64,000 nucleotides of DNA from contig NZ_AFOY02000009.1 of assembly GCF_000217955.3 (NCBI RefSeq), positions 1 through 64,000 on the forward strand, given 5' to 3'. The stretch is from Pseudomonas fluorescens HK44. Lineage in GTDB: Bacteria > Pseudomonadota > Gammaproteobacteria > Pseudomonadales > Pseudomonadaceae. The notes beneath the pieces were generated by a model. The model was not told the DNA's origin and made no database searches. It was given only the letters and a program-made list of their open reading frames with translations. The number at the start of each line of letters is the position of its first letter. The stretch's first letter is position 1. The position numbers were made by a program, and so were the translations under genes. This document shows positions 11,161 to 18,062 of the stretch, piece by piece.

Positions 11161-11862
11161 ATGCTGCAGTTCGAAAACGTTTCCACCTTCTACGGCAAGA
11201 TCCAGGCCCTGCATAGCGTCAACGTCGAAGTCCGCCAGGGCGAAATCGTCACGCTGATCGGTGCCAACGGCGCCGGCAAGTCCACCCTGCTGATGACCCT
11301 GTGCGGTTCGCCGCAGGCCCATAGCGGCAGCATTCGCTACATGGGTGAGGAACTGGTCGGCCAGGACTCCGCGCGGATCATGCGTAAAAGCATCGCCGTG
11401 GTTCCGGAAGGTCGTCGGGTGTTTGCCCGTCTGACCGTGGAAGAAAACCTCGCCATGGGCGGGTTCTTCACCGACAAAGGCGATTACCAGGAGCAAATGG
11501 ACAAGGTCCTGGGGTTGTTCCCGCGACTCAAGGAACGCTTCAGCCAGCGCGGCGGCACCATGTCGGGTGGTGAGCAGCAGATGCTTGCCATCGGCCGGGC
11601 GCTGATGAGCAAACCCAAGCTGCTGCTGCTCGACGAGCCGTCGCTGGGTCTGGCGCCGATCATCATCCAGCAGATCTTCGACATCATCGAACAGCTGCGC
11701 AAGGACGGTGTGACGGTGTTCCTGGTAGAACAGAATGCCAACCAGGCGTTGAAAATCGCCGACCGCGCCTACGTGCTGGAAAACGGCCGGGTGGTGATGC
11801 AAGGCACCGGTGAAGCCCTGCTGAGCGACCCTAAAGTGCGCGACGCGTACCTGGGCGGCTAA
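11161..11862 (+). CDS. livF: branched-chain amino acid ABC transporter ATPase LivF
   Basis: Second ATPase of the importer, 233 residues, with Walker A GANGAGKST (about residue 37), signature MSGGEQQMLAIGRALM, Walker B LLLLDEPSLGLAP and switch sequence LVEQN. Its start directly follows the livG stop. The group II intron begins 17 bases after the stop codon on the opposite strand, so the probable natural terminator of the operon is now about 1.8 kb downstream. Confidence 0.95.
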   Translation: MLQFENVSTFYGKIQALHSVNVEVRQGEIVTLIGANGAGKSTLLMTLCGSPQAHSGSIRYMGEELVGQDSARIMRKSIAVVPEGRRVFARLTVEENLAMGGFFTDKGDYQEQMDKVLGLFPRLKERFSQRGGTMSGGEQQMLAIGRALMSKPKLLLLDEPSLGLAPIIIQQIFDIIEQLRKDGVTVFLVEQNANQALKIADRAYVLENGRVVMQGTGEALLSDPKVRDAYLGG

Positions 11863-11879: not shown

Positions 11880-13705
11880 ATAGGGGACGGCCTTCATAGG
11901 CCGCTCCCCTGCCACACCACCCGGCATGCGGGTCCGCACCGGGCGGTTCGAGAGATTGAGGTTATGAGAAACGCACTAATCCCAGCCTGTCGAACCACGC
12001 AATATTAAGCACGCGATTCAGGTCAAGACGACTGTTATGCCACCAGCGGCAGGTGTTTCCTGCCACCTTCTGCGCCACCTGGTTATTCGCGCCAAGTGCT
12101 CGCAGCTCACGATACGTCGTCGTTCCGCGCTTCCATTGTTTAAGCTGGATCGCTCGCAACCGGTGTCGTATCCATTCGTCCAGCGCACGCCAGACGGCTG
12201 GGGTTTGCGACAACCCAAAGTAAGCTTTCCATCCCAAAATGTAAGGTTGTAGGTCATCGACAATCTGCTGCAAGCTACGGCCACACGAGCGTCGGGTGTA
12301 CCAGCGTATTCGTTGCTTGAACTGCTTCTGCGCTTTATAGGATGCGGCACGCTTGACTTCGCCGCGGGCTGACCACAACTCATAGCCCAGAAACTTGCGA
12401 CCAAACGCGCTCGTCACTGCACTCTTGCTCTCGTTGACGCTCAAGTGCAGCTTTTCGTACAGCTGCCTCAGCAGGGCCATTACCCGCTGCCCCGCCTTCT
12501 GACTGCGAACATAAACGTTCGCATCATCGGCATAGCGCACAAAACAATGTCCCCTGCGCTCAAGCTCTCGGTCCACTTCGTCCAGCAGCACATTCGCCAG
12601 CAACGGCGACAGCGGGCCGCCTTGCGGCGCCCCGCAGCGGCTTTTCTCGACCACTCCATTGATCAGCGTTCCCGCATCCAGATAGGCACGAATCAGCCGG
12701 ATAACCGCCTGATCCGTGGTCCGTTTGCGCAAACGATCCATCAAGATGTCGTGATCGACCCGGTCGAAGAACTTCTCCAGATCAACATCCACCACCACTT
12801 TACGTCCTGAAGAAACATGGCGCTGAGCCGCTAAAACGGCGCCCTGCGCACAGCGTCCCGGACGAAAGCCGTAGCTGTGTTCACTGAAAGTCGGATCGAG
12901 TAATGGCTGCAAGACTTGCAGCAGCGCTTGTTGGATCAAACGGTCGGTGACCGTTGGGATACCCAGCTCGCGTTGACCGCCGTCAGGTTTGGGAATGGCT
13001 ACACGCCGTACCGGACTGGGCCGGTAGACACCTGATAGAAGCTGTTCACGAATCGCCGCCCATTGGGTCAGCAGGTACTCGGCCGTCTGATCAATATCCA
13101 GACCGTCGACTCCCGCTGCACCTTTGTTGGCCTTGACCCGTTTCCACGCCCGCTTCAGGTTTTCTCTCGCAAAGGCCCGTTCCAGCAGCCCTTGCCCTGC
13201 GTTGTCGGATTCATCTTGCGGGCGATTGACCTCGTCGCTGACGGGACTTCTCACGGCTTCACCGCTCGCAGTCTCCATCCGCCCCGCGTTTGGCAGGCAT
13301 CTGACTTCCGGTCTTTCGTATCAACATGGCCTATAACGCTTTCTCTCGTTCGGCCCTTCGTCAAAAAAAAAGACTACTACGGCCTCTGCTGACTTCTCGC
13401 TCCGGCTGGCACCGTCGCCCTTTCAGGCATAAGGCGAGATCTCCCCAGGTAAGAACGCAATCCTTCACCACACAACCGCCGGATTTACACAGCCTGATCC
13501 TTGACCACAAGAGCTTCGCGGTTTTGTGCCCGCTCGCCCTGATCGGCCGCGCCTTTTATCCGGTTCTTGTACATCGGCTCATGGCTTCGATTCACGCTTC
13601 CTCCCCACACTCGGTCACCCTCATGCAGTTGCGCTTCACTTCGTTCGCTGTGGTCAGCTTACGGCGGGACTTTCACCCACAAGATTGCGCCCATGCTGGG
13701 CGCAC
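11880..13705 (-). mobile_element. group II intron, probably bacterial class C
   Basis: Complete self-splicing intron of about 1826 bases on the minus strand. The 5' end GTGCGCCCAGCATGGGCGCA fits the GUGYG consensus. The 3' end runs through domain-V/VI-like hairpins (an ACCGCCCGGTGCGG region, then a GGGG...CCCC stem) and finishes CCCCTAT, giving the required AY end. Between them lies one reverse transcriptase gene. The 5' exon on this strand is a rho-independent terminator, stem plus T run, and the intron starts two bases after it. Such target choice is the hallmark of class C introns. The intron is antisense to livF, so it cannot splice out of the liv transcript. Confidence 0.88.
11962..13278 (-). 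CDS. ltrA: group II intron reverse transcriptase/maturase
   Basis: 438-residue intron-encoded protein. The reverse transcriptase fingers and palm show DGQRELGIPTVTDRLIQQAL, the YGFRPGRCAQGAVLAA region and the catalytic FVRYADDANVYVRS (YADD) near residue 230. A maturase (X) domain follows, ending with WWHNSRLDLNRVLNIAWFDRLG. There is no HNH endonuclease domain, in keeping with class C introns. All key residues are present, so the intron looks mobile. Confidence 0.93.
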   Translation of the reverse strand: METASGEAVRSPVSDEVNRPQDESDNAGQGLLERAFARENLKRAWKRVKANKGAAGVDGLDIDQTAEYLLTQWAAIREQLLSGVYRPSPVRRVAIPKPDGGQRELGIPTVTDRLIQQALLQVLQPLLDPTFSEHSYGFRPGRCAQGAVLAAQRHVSSGRKVVVDVDLEKFFDRVDHDILMDRLRKRTTDQAVIRLIRAYLDAGTLINGVVEKSRCGAPQGGPLSPLLANVLLDEVDRELERRGHCFVRYADDANVYVRSQKAGQRVMALLRQLYEKLHLSVNESKSAVTSAFGRKFLGYELWSARGEVKRAASYKAQKQFKQRIRWYTRRSCGRSLQQIVDDLQPYILGWKAYFGLSQTPAVWRALDEWIRHRLRAIQLKQWKRGTTTYRELRALGANNQVAQKVAGNTCRWWHNSRLDLNRVLNIAWFDRLGLVRFS

Positions 13706-13707
13706 AC

Positions 13708-13737
13708 AAAAAAACGGCCTGCGGGCCGTTTTTTTTT
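13708..13737. terminator. bidirectional terminator, intron target and probable former livF terminator
   Basis: The stem ACGGCC-TGCG-GGCCGT is flanked by seven A on one side and a T run on the other, so it can end transcripts in both directions. On the minus strand it is the 5' exon of the group II intron. On the plus strand it would have been about 20 bases after livF before insertion. Confidence 0.85.
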
Positions 13738-13741
13738 GCCT

Positions 13742-13809
13742 TGTAGAAGCACGGCTTGCCGGCGATGGTGCTTGGGAGAACGCCATCGCCGGCAAGCCGT
13801 GCTCCTACA
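13742..13809. repeat. REP pair (inverted)
   Basis: Two inverted copies of a Pseudomonas REP core, TGTAGAAGCACGGCTTGCC and its near-exact complement ending GTGCTCCTACA, around a short spacer. The arms pair over some 27 bases. It lies between the intron and the bufferin-type operon. Confidence 0.8.
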
Positions 13810-13846
13810 GGATTGTGTCGTGTACAAAAGTTTTTTCACACGCGCT

Positions 13847-13873
13847 GTAACGAACCGCAGTGACCTTTCTCTA
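13847..13873 (+). promoter_or_regulatory. candidate ECF-sigma-type promoter of the bufferin-like operon
   Basis: GTAAC, a 16-base spacer and TCTCTA resemble an extracytoplasmic-function sigma factor promoter (AAC at -35, TCTA at -10), about 58 bases before the start of the precursor gene. Related DUF2282 operons are often under ECF sigma control. This is a by-eye match only. Confidence 0.35.
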
Positions 13874-13930
13874 GAGGGGTAAGCAAGCATAAACGCTTAC
13901 TTGAACCCATCCCTTGTTTGGAGAAACATC

Positions 13931-14239
13931 ATGACCGCTACCACTCGCACCCTGTCCGCTGCCGCCCTCGCCCTGGCCTTGGGTTCCGCTTTGAGCATCG
14001 CGGCGCTGCCGACCACTGCCCATGCCGCAGCCACTGACATGGAAAAATGCTTTGGCGTCGCCATGAAAGGCAAAAACGATTGCGCCGCAGGTGCAGGCAC
14101 TACCTGCGCGGGCACCTCGAAAATCGACTACGAGAGCAACCACTTCAAGCTGGTGCCAAAAGGCACTTGCGATAAGACTGCCAGCCCGACCTCGCCGACC
14201 GGCTTCGGTCAAATGGCCGCCTACAAAGCCAAGTCGTAA
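13931..14239 (+). CDS. bufA1: DUF2282 bufferin-type precursor peptide
   Basis: Exported 102-residue protein with a long signal peptide ([21 protein letters not shown], cut near residue 34). The short mature part has exactly four cysteines, in MEKCFG, KNDCAA, TTCAGT and KGTCDK. This is the pattern of the BUF_1/DUF2282 family. Recent work describes such proteins as bufferins: ribosomal peptides whose cysteines are turned into copper-binding heterocycles by the neighbouring DUF692 enzyme, then exported to buffer copper. The start has GGAG upstream. The following three genes are the standard partners. Function is inferred from family and context. Confidence 0.85.
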
Positions 14240-14261
14240 TCCCTCCTCTGCCTGAGTGTTG

Positions 14262-15155
14262 ATGATGACCACTTCAGCGCTGCACACCGTACATCCTCAC
14301 ACTCAGGCATTGGCGTCCGAGCTCCCGCCCCGCGCGGGGCTGGGGCTCAAGACCGAGCACTTTGGCGCAGTACTCGATACTCGCCCGGACATCGGCTTCT
14401 TCGAAGTCCACGCCGAAAACTACATGGTGGCCGGCGGCCCGTTTCATCATTACCTGGGTTTGATCCGCGAGCAGTATCCGCTGTCGCTGCATGGCGTCGG
14501 TCTGTCGATCGGCGGCGAAGGTCCGCTGAACCCCGAGCACCTTGCCCGGCTCGCCCATCTGATCGAACGCTATCAACCCCAATCCTTTTCCGAACACCTG
14601 GCCTGGTCGAGCCACGGCCCGGTGTTTCTCAATGACCTGCTGCCATTGGCCTATAACGAGTCGACACTACAGCGTGTCTGCGAGCATATCGACCAGGTTC
14701 AGGAGTATCTGAAACGCCCCATGCTGCTGGAAAACCCGGCGACTTACTTGCAGTTCCAGCGCTCCGGCATGGACGAAGCCTGCTTCATCACGGATGTCAT
14801 CCGCCGCACTGGCTGCGGTTTGCTGCTGGATGTGAACAACGTCTACGTCTCCTGCATCAATCATCAGCGCGATCCATTGGCCTACCTCGACGCACTGCCG
14901 CTGCATGCCGTGGGCGAGATCCATCTGGCCGGATTTGCCGAAGACACTGACAGCCTCGGCGATCGCCTGCTGATCGACGATCACGGCGCGCCCATCGATA
15001 ACGCCGTATGGGCGCTGTACACACGTGTTCTTGAGCGCGTCGGGCCGGTGGCCACGCTGATTGAACGTGACAATCAGGTGCCTGCGTTTTCCGCGCTGCA
15101 CGCCGAGGCCCGTCAGGCCGATGAGCTGCTGGGTTATACCGGGGTACGCCGATGA
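14262..15155 (+). CDS. bufB: DUF692 (MNIO) iron oxidase, bufferin maturation enzyme
   Basis: Cytoplasmic TIM-barrel enzyme of the multinuclear non-heme iron-dependent oxidase family, about 297 residues. Candidate metal ligands sit in [58 protein letters not shown] and LIERDNQVP, all in the usual order. The enzyme is expected to oxidise cysteines of the upstream precursor. Adjacent ATGs at 14262 and 14265 are equally possible starts, and the ribosome site is weak. It overlaps the next gene by four bases (ATGA). Confidence 0.9.
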
Positions 15156-15925
15156 ACACTCAAGCCGATTTCGCCGCCGCCCTGCTTGATCCTCGACGGC
15201 CCTGCCCTGACGGTTTGTTCAGCGCCAACGGTGCTGACCCGGATAGCCGCTTCGCGGTGTACCGCAACAACGTGCAGAGCTCGCTGATCAACGCCCTGGC
15301 CGACAGCTATCCGGTGGTATCGCAGTTGGTCGGGAATGAGTTTTTTCGGGCCATGGCCCAGTTTTATGGGCGGGATTTCCCGCCGAGCAGTGCGCTGATC
15401 AACGACTACGGCAGTGACTTCGCCAGTTTCATTGAGCACTTTGCGCCGGCCGCTTCAGTGCCGTATCTCGCAGATGTCGCACGCCTGGAGCGCTTGCGGG
15501 TGATGGCCTATCACGCGGCAGATGCCAACGCTGTCGAGCCTGCCCGGATTGCTGCGGCGCTGGCTGCTCCCGAAGCGCTCGCCCAGCTACACATTCATCT
15601 GCACCCCTCAACGTTCACGCTGAGTTCGTCGTACGCCACCGTTGCGCTATGGGCCGCCCACCAGACTGACACACCCCCCCGGAACCTTGCGCCGTATCAC
15701 CCGCAAAGCGCGCTGGTGTTGCGCAATGGCCTGGAGGTTGAGGTCTTTGCGATTGACGTCGGCACGGCGACCTTCATCCACAGCCTGCAAAACAACCACC
15801 CTTTGGGGCAAGCGGTAGCCGATGCCCTGGACGCCGCCCCGGCGTTTGACTTGAGCCAGTGCCTGGCGCTGCTGATCGGCCATAACGCCATCATCCACCT
15901 GCAACACGACAAGGTATCGCCATGA
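15152..15925 (+). CDS. bufC: DUF2063 partner protein of the bufferin system
   Basis: 257-residue cytoplasmic protein. The N-terminal DUF2063 'putative DNA-binding' domain shows [22 protein letters not shown] near residue 30, and a variable C-terminal part follows. In bufferin and other MNIO clusters this protein acts as the partner that recruits the precursor to DUF692, rather than as a DNA binder. It is coupled by ATGA overlaps to both bufB upstream and the DoxX gene downstream. Confidence 0.85.
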
Positions 15926-16434
15926 ATACCCGCACCGAACACCCGAACGCCATCACCTTCCTGATCGAACGAATCATCGGACTGTTCGAGAGGATCCCCC
16001 ACAGCCTGACCGCCTTCGTTGCACGCTTCTCCATTGCCGCGGTGTTCTGGAAGTCTGGCCAGACCAAGGTCGAGGGCCTGGCTATCGACCTGTTCGACGG
16101 CACCTTCCAGCTCGGTATTCCGCGCCTCGCAGACTCGACCATTCCGTTGTTCCAAAGCGAATACCACGTGCCGCTGCTGTCCCCGGAACTGGCGGCGCAC
16201 ATGGCGGCCTTCGCCGAGCATTTCTTCCCGATCCTGATCCTCGTCGGCTTCGCCACACGCTTCTCGGCCCTGGCGCTATTGGGCATGACGCTGACCATTC
16301 AGACCTTTGTCTACCCGGACGCCTATCCGACTCACGGCACCTGGGCGGCGATTCTGCTGTACCTGATGGCCAGAGGTCCGGGCGCGCTGTCGATCGATCA
16401 TCTGATCGCCAAACGTTACGCCGCCAAACGCTAA
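15922..16434 (+). CDS. DoxX family membrane protein of the bufferin operon
   Basis: 170-residue inner-membrane protein with four hydrophobic segments and the DoxX-type stretch FSIAAVFWKSGQTKVEGL near residue 33. It is the usual last gene of DUF2282-DUF692-DUF2063 operons. A role in electron supply or membrane handling of the product is likely but unproven. It overlaps bufC by four bases. Convergent with the following LysR gene. Confidence 0.85.
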   Translation: MNTRTEHPNAITFLIERIIGLFERIPHSLTAFVARFSIAAVFWKSGQTKVEGLAIDLFDGTFQLGIPRLADSTIPLFQSEYHVPLLSPELAAHMAAFAEHFFPILILVGFATRFSALALLGMTLTIQTFVYPDAYPTHGTWAAILLYLMARGPGALSIDHLIAKRYAAKR

Positions 16435-16450
16435 GCTCTTGTAGCCGCTG

Positions 16451-17359
16451 CTACAGCCGATCCAGTGCTTCGCCGCTGCGCTTGAACCACCTCATCAGGT
16501 AGTCGGCCAATACTTGCGTGCGCTTGGGCAAGCCGCCCTGATACGGGTGCACCAGATACATCGGCATGCTTCGGGTCTGATAGTCGCGCAGCAGCCAGCG
16601 CAAACGGCCATCGGCCAGTTCAGCCTGCAACAAGTAAGAAGGCAGGCGCGCGATCCCCGCATGGGCAAGCGCAGCCTTCTTCAGCAGGTTGTAGTGGTTA
16701 CTGGCGAACGGCCCCGAGACCCGCACCCGCAACAGCTCATGTTGCTGGTGGTACAGCCACTCTTCCCGGCCACTGTAATGGCTGTTGAGCAGGCAACGAT
16801 GATCGACCAGGTCCACTGGCGTCTGCGGCTCACCGAACTGCTCAAGATAAGCCGGGCTGGCGCAAGTCATCTCGTGCCAGGCCAACAGCGGCTTGGCCAC
16901 CATTCGCTCGTCGTTGGCCACCTCTGAACGAATAGCCAGATCGAACCCGTCCCGCGACAAGTCGCGGTAACTGTTGTTCAGCTCAAGCTCGATCTGCACG
17001 TCGGGGTACTCTCGGGAAAACTCCAGCAGCAACCCATCGAAAAAAGTCTCCCCCAGCGACACCGGGACCGTCATCCGAATCGGCCCCGCCATATCGTCTT
17101 TCAACCGTGCCAGGGCCTGTCGCGCCCGCTCTACTTGAATCACCAGCGCCAGCGCTTGCGGCAACAACGCCGCACCGGCCGCCGTCAGGCTCAAACGCCG
17201 TGTGGTTCGCTGCAACAGCACTACGCTGAAACGTGTTTCCAACTGACTGATGCGCTTGGACAGCTGCCCCTTGCTACACCCCAGTTGCTGCGCTGCCAGC
17301 GTGAAACTGCCGGCCTCGATCAACACCGCAAACGCCGCCAGATCATCCATTTCGCTCAT
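16451..17359 (-). CDS. LysR-family transcriptional regulator
   Basis: 302-residue regulator with an N-terminal winged helix (MDDLAAFAVLIEAGSFTLAA, then LGCSKGQLSKRISQLE as recognition helix) and a LysR substrate domain from about residue 90 (PIRMTVPVSLGETFFDGLL). It resembles the CrgA/YafC type. I start at the ATG at 17359, which has GGAAA upstream. It is divergent from the SDR gene at 17463, with about 100 bases between, so it probably controls that gene and itself. Confidence 0.88.
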   Translation of the reverse strand: MSEMDDLAAFAVLIEAGSFTLAAQQLGCSKGQLSKRISQLETRFSVVLLQRTTRRLSLTAAGAALLPQALALVIQVERARQALARLKDDMAGPIRMTVPVSLGETFFDGLLLEFSREYPDVQIELELNNSYRDLSRDGFDLAIRSEVANDERMVAKPLLAWHEMTCASPAYLEQFGEPQTPVDLVDHRCLLNSHYSGREEWLYHQQHELLRVRVSGPFASNHYNLLKKAALAHAGIARLPSYLLQAELADGRLRWLLRDYQTRSMPMYLVHPYQGGLPKRTQVLADYLMRWFKRSGEALDRL

Positions 17360-17462
17360 GGATTGTTTCCAATTGAAAACCAAAGGTTGCCCATTAGCAC
17401 GCTTATCAATAAAAAAACCACACTAAACTGAAACCACATTCACCCACTTGAGGATAAGCACG

Positions 17463-18062
17463 ATGAAAATTCTTTTGATTGGAGCCTCCGGCACTGTCGG
17501 CTCGGCCATTGACCGGGAACTGTCCCAGCGCCACAAAATCATTCGTATCGCTCGCAAGAGTGGTGACTTCCAGGTTGATATCAGTGACAGCGCCTCGATC
17601 CGCAAGCTGTTCGAACAGACCGGCAACTTCGATGCACTGATCTGCGCCGCCGGCAGCGTCAATTTCGTGCCGTTGGCCAACATGACCGAAAAAGACTTCG
17701 AGCTGGGCTTGCGGGACAAGCTGATGGGCCAGGTCAATCTGCTGTTGATCGGCCGGGAGTTCGCCAATGACGGCGCCTCATTCACCTTCACCACCGGCAT
17801 TCTCAGCCACGATCCGATTCGTACCGGAAGCTCGGCGTCCATGGTCAACGGAGCCCTGGACAGTTTCGTTAAAGCGGCGGCTATCGAATTGCCACGCGGT
17901 CTGCGGATCAACTCGGTGAGCCCTAACGTACTGGTTGAAGCCATGGGCAGCTACGCACCGTACTTCCGCGGATTCAAACCGGTTCCAGCCGCCGATGTGG
18001 CGCTGGCCTACGCGAAAAGCGTAGAAGGCTTGCAGACAGGCCAGATCTACAACGTTGGCTAA
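17463..18062 (+). CDS. short-chain dehydrogenase-like protein lacking the YxxxK catalytic pair
   Basis: 199-residue compact Rossmann protein, start MKILLIGASGTVGSAIDREL with the GxxGxxG cofactor loop, and RINSVSPNVL near the end as in SDRs. The usual active-site Tyr and Lys are not found: the aligned region reads SSASMVNGALDSF, with Ala and Asn in those positions. This matches a small subfamily in which the change is normal. It may bind NADP without classical dehydrogenase activity. A GAGGA site fixes the start. It is probably controlled by the divergent LysR gene. Confidence 0.82.
   Translation: MKILLIGASGTVGSAIDRELSQRHKIIRIARKSGDFQVDISDSASIRKLFEQTGNFDALICAAGSVNFVPLANMTEKDFELGLRDKLMGQVNLLLIGREFANDGASFTFTTGILSHDPIRTGSSASMVNGALDSFVKAAAIELPRGLRINSVSPNVLVEAMGSYAPYFRGFKPVPAADVALAYAKSVEGLQTGQIYNVG

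Follow-up and report, generated by a model that had tools for sequence, protein, structure and literature searches.

INTRODUCTION

A close published counterpart of the operon under study is CC3254-CC3257 of Caulobacter vibrioides, a Buf1 bufferin operon in which genes for a DUF2282 precursor, an MNIO enzyme, a DUF2063 protein and a DoxX protein follow one another under the control of an extracytoplasmic function (ECF) sigma factor, SigF. The sigF gene lies beside the operon together with that of a membrane anti-sigma, NrsF, and the promoter reads GTAACC-N16-CGAA (PMC3511200, PMC12452194). Under dichromate, two DUF2282 operons and a gene of the YedY type come under the control of SigF (PMC3511200). 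According to the model for Caulobacter, BufB and BufC make thiooxazoles on two central cysteines (Cys) of the peptide, which is exported by Sec and binds copper in the periplasm (PMC12452194, PMC12668002); Buf1 is reported to chelate copper through these Cys-derived thiooxazoles (PMC12452194). Here we analyze the operon bufA-bufB-bufC-doxX at positions 13931-16434 of a 64,000-nt stretch (G000:C13:1-64000, hereafter the window) of a 6.2 Mb Pseudomonas-like genome. It shares with the Caulobacter operon the gene order, a predicted ECF control and a GTAAC-type -35 element; it differs in that its genome contains no NrsF, its candidate sigma factor is unlinked and has a small zinc-finger partner, and its promoter reads TGTAAC-N17-CTCTAG.

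Three further systems bear on the comparison. The Pep1 cluster of soil Pseudomonas, described in P. fluorescens strains, has the same set of DUF2282, DUF692, DUF2063 and DoxX genes and was the cluster most strongly correlated with suppression of Streptomyces scabies (PMC8719888). The RpoE2-HrsE system of Haemophilus influenzae, which we liken by its description, likewise couples an ECF sigma factor and a small cytoplasmic anti-sigma to a DoxX/DUF692 (MNIO) cluster, but its precursor belongs to the COG3767 family and it is induced by hypochlorous acid (HOCl) (PMC7907618). In Brucella, an ECF-controlled operon for a methionine-rich (Met-rich) peptide, BcrX, is found alongside MsrQP and a pair of ECF16 and NrsF, and adds to HOCl resistance; that account cites work on MrpX of Azospira, and the MXKDX peptides MrpX and BcrX are short, exported, Met-rich and under ECF sigma factors, as the Pseudomonas peptide described below appears to be (PMC8315932).

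Our principal reading, to which we assign a probability of roughly 0.75, is that the window carries a Buf1 bufferin operon transcribed by an ECF sigma factor encoded elsewhere in the genome.

RESULTS

The operon belongs to the canonical Buf1 type

The sequence-only reading of this stretch had proposed a bufferin-type operon with a four-Cys DUF2282 precursor and MNIO, DUF2063 and DoxX genes, and these are all present in that order, each encoded protein exceeding its Pfam cut-off (Table 1). BufB also passes the NCBIfam model MNIO_BufB (NF050167; 383.3 bits, cut-off 310), the sole NCBIfam cut-off passed in the operon. BufC scores 48.8 bits against HvfC, under the cut-off of 142, and DoxX scores 39.6 bits against HvfX, under the cut-off of 80, both models being equivalogs built for the oxazolin type. 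The precursor reaches 22.7 bits against BufA2 (NF050166), under the cut-off of 60, and is therefore assigned to Buf1 and not to Buf2. Its mature part contains four Cys, which are kept in all 30 loci compared (the window included), and it is the only DUF2282 match in the whole genome. A search of solved structures returned no match for BufA at E up to 1 or for BufC at E up to 0.01. The proposed coupling by ATGA overlaps holds at the bufB/bufC and bufC/doxX junctions but not between bufA and bufB, which are 22 nt apart.

Judged by its sequence, namely gene content, gene order, the four Cys and a hidden Markov model match at the BufB level, the operon is a member of the Buf1 bufferin family; it is an ordinary, canonical example of a type already known, with the gene set of Pep1. 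Because bufferins work in the periplasm, 'exported' is used here for transport across the inner membrane. Identified by its BufB orthologue, the Buf1 operon occurs in 53 of 119 same-genus genomes, the window's own included.

A conserved ECF-type promoter precedes bufA

Two findings back the ECF-like promoter that had been noticed ahead of the operon: it is conserved, and the genome encodes a candidate sigma factor for it. Across the upstream regions of bufA in the 30 loci, the exact motif TGTAAC-N17-CTCTAG is found in 26; three regions read CTCAAG and one reads TGTAAT. A simple sigma-70 scan of positions 13600-16600 gave no site. The pattern TGTAAC-N(16-18)-CTCTA has a single match in the window's genome, before bufA, and a motif variant ending in AGT has no match genome-wide because the genome reads CTCTAGA.

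The position of the motif is more informative than its frequency. There are 78 exact matches in the 119 genomes, and 67 of them lie 354-418 nt upstream of a same-strand MNIO gene (39 in the Buf1 operon and 28 in a second type of operon), with 11 elsewhere. The tetranucleotide CTAG is presumed to be rare in such genomes.

An unlinked ECF sigma factor is the candidate regulator

None of the genome's 21 sigma-region-4 matches falls inside the window, and tblastn with the nine ECF sigma factors of this genome against same-genus loci (L005-L058, L080-L085) found no sigma gene adjoining the operon. A lead comes from an Azotobacter plasmid, on which bufABC-doxX is followed by an ECF sigma gene, a zf-HC2 protein gene and msrP, an order repeated in one other genome (G159). 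Among the nine ECF sigma factors of the window's genome, one is nearest to this operon-linked Azotobacter sigma, with 41% identity over 202 aa, the next being AlgU with 28% over 194 aa. Its gene (G000:C19:1511602-1512234) has a FabH-like gene for a neighbor and, downstream, a gene for a 78-aa zf-HC2 protein, a candidate zinc-finger anti-sigma; the Sigma70 region 2, Sigma70 region 4 and zf-HC2 domains of the pair (PF04542, PF08281, PF13490) each exceed their cut-offs. Of the 53 genomes with the Buf1 operon, 52 carry an orthologue of the sigma factor (E 1e-94 or better), against 20 of the 66 others, which makes 72 of 119 in all. In three of three genomes of a clade discussed below (G007, G089 and G096), TGTAAC-N17-CTCTA, the motif minus its last G, lies 19-28 nt before a possible ATG of the sigma gene itself.

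The second type of operon bears on the same question. Its precursor in relatives of the window's genome is of the BufA2 family (91.4 bits against NF050166, cut-off 60; one sequence). Among 71 second-type MNIO genes, the motif is found upstream of 28 of the 54 in sigma-positive genomes, with 26 lacking it, and of none of the 17 in sigma-negative genomes. No BufA2-type operon was found in the window's genome, whose one further MNIO is part of a fusion protein. PMC12452194 reports sigma genes in Buf1 clusters and none in Buf2 clusters; an unlinked sigma factor shared by Buf1 and Buf2 would serve both.

Several observations weigh against pairing this sigma factor with this promoter. A reversed control pattern gives 69 matches in the same 119 genomes, and since this control yields counts and not positions, the raw number of motifs proves nothing and only their placement matters. 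The exact motif is absent from 14 of the 53 Buf1 operons. Inspection of 11 of these 14 (all except G034, G037 and G044) found CTCAAG in four (G070, G079, G006, G092), TGTAAT with CTCTAG in two (G031, G106), CTCTAC in G093, a 19-nt spacer in G082, and weak variants only in G041 (TGTAAT-N17-CTCTGT) and G060 (TGTAAC-N17-CTCTGA, far upstream); no motif was seen in the operon region of G042, though that genome has the sigma factor. Conversely, G035 has the operon and the motif with no sigma match in its 530-contig assembly. The co-occurrence of sigma factor and operon gives a Fisher p of 8e-16, a value that ignores shared ancestry. Outside the clade of G007, G089 and G096, a check of sigma loci found no motif ahead of the gene, neither in the genome of the window nor at 11 others.

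These observations would fit a different arrangement, in which a different ECF sigma factor encoded by the genome reads the same bufferin operon, or the motif serves in part as an operator, and the unlinked sigma factor merely shares its ancestry with the clade that bears the operon. The lack of linkage between sigma gene and operon, the absence of the motif upstream of the sigma gene in the window's genome, the 20 sigma-positive genomes that lack a Buf1 operon and the case of G042 all favor this explanation, which we nonetheless consider unlikely. Against it stand the candidate's being nearest, of the nine, to the Azotobacter sigma linked to the operon, the motif that precedes the sigma gene itself in three of three genomes of one clade, and the lack of motifs at second-type operons of sigma-negative genomes. 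We retain control by the unlinked sigma factor as the preferred reading.

Other regulators were considered. The SigF-NrsF (ECF16) pair is rejected for this genome, which has no NrsF counterpart, and the promoter is not GTAACC-N16-CGAA. AlgU, SigX, the FecI-like and the other ECF sigma factors of the genome are less likely candidates, each being farther in sequence from the operon-linked Azotobacter sigma. SigW/RsiW of P. donghuensis is, by its published description, a different pair, with a 169-aa sigma factor and a 249-aa transmembrane anti-sigma (PMC9861184). A supposed link to PA3285 and PA3282-PA3284 of P. aeruginosa found no support: PA3282-PA3284 appear in a table of a paper on ZnuA and zinc, and PA3285 is predicted to be controlled by PvdS. 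Elsewhere in the family, an ECF16-type sigma gene adjoins 19 of the 30 DUF2282-family loci fetched, often with a promoter like GTAACC-N16-CGAA. The genome studied here has no NrsF, and it seems that one regulator of the Buf1 operon has been exchanged for another between lineages.

The same genome encodes another ECF sigma factor with a 252-aa zf-HC2 protein (L121, G000:C19:108000-120000); the sequence downstream of this pair contains TGTAACG with GTC after it, and a nearby 106-aa protein looks cupredoxin-like by eye. The second MNIO of the genome forms a fusion with a SagB-type dehydrogenase domain and adjoins an aKG-HExxH peptide beta-hydroxylase (L002, G000:C32:61261-64800), probably a separate cluster of another kind for a ribosomally synthesized and post-translationally modified peptide. 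A further BufA2-like operon type, with precursors that start MSNKSNV or MSTKNTV, is present at seven loci (L161, L167, L169, L179, L180, L182, L184). It has no motif even in sigma-positive G063, G069, G078 and G113, so its control must differ.

A methionine-rich peptide occupies the same site in one clade

Three of the 11 exact motifs found away from MNIO genes (in G007, G089 and G096, all sigma-positive and all without a Buf1-type bufB) precede a gene for an exported peptide that is free of Cys and rich in Met, lysine and aspartate. Four of the other eight were read, and no precursor-like gene stands behind any of them. A scan of named genomes for such loci yielded 199 stretches that fitted the pattern, of which six were confirmed: in P. 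donghuensis HYS, P. putida 31303, P. wadenswilerensis, P. rubra and two Pseudomonas sp. strains. They encode six distinct peptides of 76-86 aa, three of them identical to those of G007, G089 and G096, with a Met content of 23-27% in the mature part. All six lie between livG-livF and lysR-sdr, where the bufferin operon is found in the window, and all six carry the exact motif. Within 6 kb, at thresholds of more than 45% identity or E below 1e-10, no match to bufB, bufC or doxX was reported, and the only match to bufA, in L230, is to the signal peptide.

The simplest reading of these sequences is that a core has been exchanged behind one promoter and one signal peptide, a Cys-rich modified core in one case and a Met-rich, presumably unmodified one in the other. 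The DNA of the promoter, leader and signal peptide of the Met-rich gene aligns throughout with that of bufA. The N-termini of the peptides from G007, G089 and G096 score at least 50 against 34, 32 and 19 of 69 DUF2282 N-termini, against none of 24 BufA2-like ones and against one of 203 others, which itself reads as bufA. This agreement, together with the site shared by six of six named loci, makes it improbable that the Met-rich gene is instead an unrelated neighbor standing by chance behind a similar promoter, although that explanation would account for a core that has no Pfam match (one sequence). Against the MXKDX model TIGR02953 (cut-off 41), three members score 9.1, 11.3 and, at best, 20.7 bits and two more have no match in a scan that covered all but the P. 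rubra peptide; the Pseudomonas peptides thus differ from MrpX and BcrX in falling under that cut-off and in having a bufA-like signal peptide. A lysR tree with 14 rows places the six from Met-rich loci together in a single group (support 100/99). The tree is rooted at its midpoint only and does not show the direction of the swap, a further point that an unrelated neighbor would accommodate.

The site takes other forms as well. In the sigma-positive genome G112, a short DoxX-like tail lies between livF and lysR (L198), probably the scar of a deletion of bufABCD, and the sigma gene has been retained. In G071 (sigma-positive) and G021 (sigma-negative), lysR stands directly behind livF.

Features and surroundings of the operon

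The operon is flanked by a livF-like ABC gene on the left and by a LysR/SDR (short-chain dehydrogenase) pair on the right. A group II intron occupies about 11880-13705 on the minus strand (both ends placed by eye), with Rfam matches to group-II-D1D4-3 at 13453-13624 and D1D4-1 at 13353-13435 and a reverse transcriptase/maturase gene at 11962-13278. Its strand is opposite to that of livF, and it is inserted immediately behind a terminator-like hairpin (13705-13738), which it separates from livF. Between the hairpin and the bufA promoter, at 13742-13809, is a 27-bp inverted repeat with a 14-nt loop that resembles a repetitive extragenic palindromic element.

Table 1. Coordinates of the operon, its promoter and the genes that anchor the site in the window
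Feature	Position	Strand	Evidence
ECF-type promoter TGTAAC-N17-CTCTAG	13846..13874	+	conserved upstream of bufA across loci
bufA, Buf1 (DUF2282) precursor, 102 aa, Sec-type signal peptide by eye	13931..14239	+	Pfam PF10048, 84.4 bits, cut-off 22.4
bufB, MNIO bufferin maturase	14262..15155	+	Pfam PF05114 (MbnB_TglH_ChrH), 351 bits; PDB 3bww, E 9.5e-39
bufC, DUF2063 partner protein	15152..15925	+	Pfam PF09836, 88.1 bits
doxX, DoxX-family membrane protein	15922..16434	+	Pfam PF07681, 54.7 bits
livF-like ABC ATPase, left anchor of the syntenic site, outside the operon	11161..11862	+	best match 85-97% identical in 30/30 genomes searched
LysR regulator, right anchor of the syntenic site	16451..17383	-	Pfam; kept beside the Met-rich gene in 6/6 named loci
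Short-chain dehydrogenase, right anchor of the syntenic site	17448..18062	+	PRK07578, 305.1 bits; kept in 6/6 named Met-rich loci

DISCUSSION

We propose that the operon works as follows. A stress would free the unlinked ECF sigma factor from its 78-aa zinc-finger anti-sigma, and the freed sigma would transcribe bufABC-doxX from TGTAAC-N17-CTCTAG; both the pairing of sigma and promoter and the inducing signal are inferred. By analogy with the published homologues, BufB together with BufC would then oxidize BufA, turning its two central Cys into thiooxazoles; the peptide would be exported by Sec and may trap copper, similar soft metals or oxidants in the periplasm. The link of this operon to copper is likewise drawn by analogy from those homologues.

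A broader proposal, for which we consider the odds about even, is that one unlinked ECF sigma factor with its zinc-finger anti-sigma runs, in Pseudomonas, a small 'periplasmic sulfur-peptide' regulon whose outputs are interchangeable, being Buf1, Buf2 or, in the P. donghuensis clade where the core of bufA would have been replaced and the modifying enzymes lost, an unmodified Met-rich peptide. If so, selection would act on a disposable, sulfur-rich trap for soft metals or oxidants and not on the thiooxazole itself.

The regulators of the related systems, RpoE2 of H. influenzae, BcrS of Brucella and SigF of Caulobacter, direct attention beyond copper to other metals and to oxidants, HOCl among them, and together with the Met-rich swap they leave two readings of the peptide's role, a soft-metal trap or an oxidant sink. 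It is possible, though we regard it as the less probable course, that the role under selection is protection of the envelope against HOCl and other oxidants, the sulfur-rich peptide being a sacrificial sink and copper chelation secondary. In one clade the same promoter drives a Met-rich peptide, and on the Azotobacter plasmid msrP stands behind the sigma pair. However, Met-rich motifs are plausible ligands of Cu(I) too. The published accounts also divide. The Met-rich peptide that accompanies MsrQP in Brucella is HOCl-induced under ECF control (PMC8315932), and H. influenzae RpoE2, whose cytoplasmic anti-sigma has 67 aa, is HOCl-inducible and has an MNIO/DoxX cluster under its control (PMC7907618). 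On the other side, the H. influenzae rpoE2 mutant had wild-type oxidant resistance in vitro (PMC7907618), and Caulobacter Buf1 is reported to be a copper chelator that aids growth in excess copper (PMC12452194).

What appears to be new here, as far as can be judged from sequence comparison, is the unlinked sigma factor, the promoter shared by Buf1 and Buf2 operons and the exchange of the peptide core. Among the best matches of an open-access literature search, none joined bufferins or DUF2282 with Met-rich peptides, the overlaps on 'bufferin' being apparently 'buffering' to judge by title, and none named P. donghuensis in this connection.

Bufferins are widespread and newly recognized, and some genomes would build such a peptide with an iron-dependent enzyme while others make a plain Met-rich one. 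With a natural swap at one promoter, a direct comparison of the two chemistries in related hosts would be possible, and whether the peptide is a copper buffer or an oxidant sink becomes testable. For the bufferin operons of Pseudomonas that have no sigma gene nearby, the analysis offers a candidate regulator.

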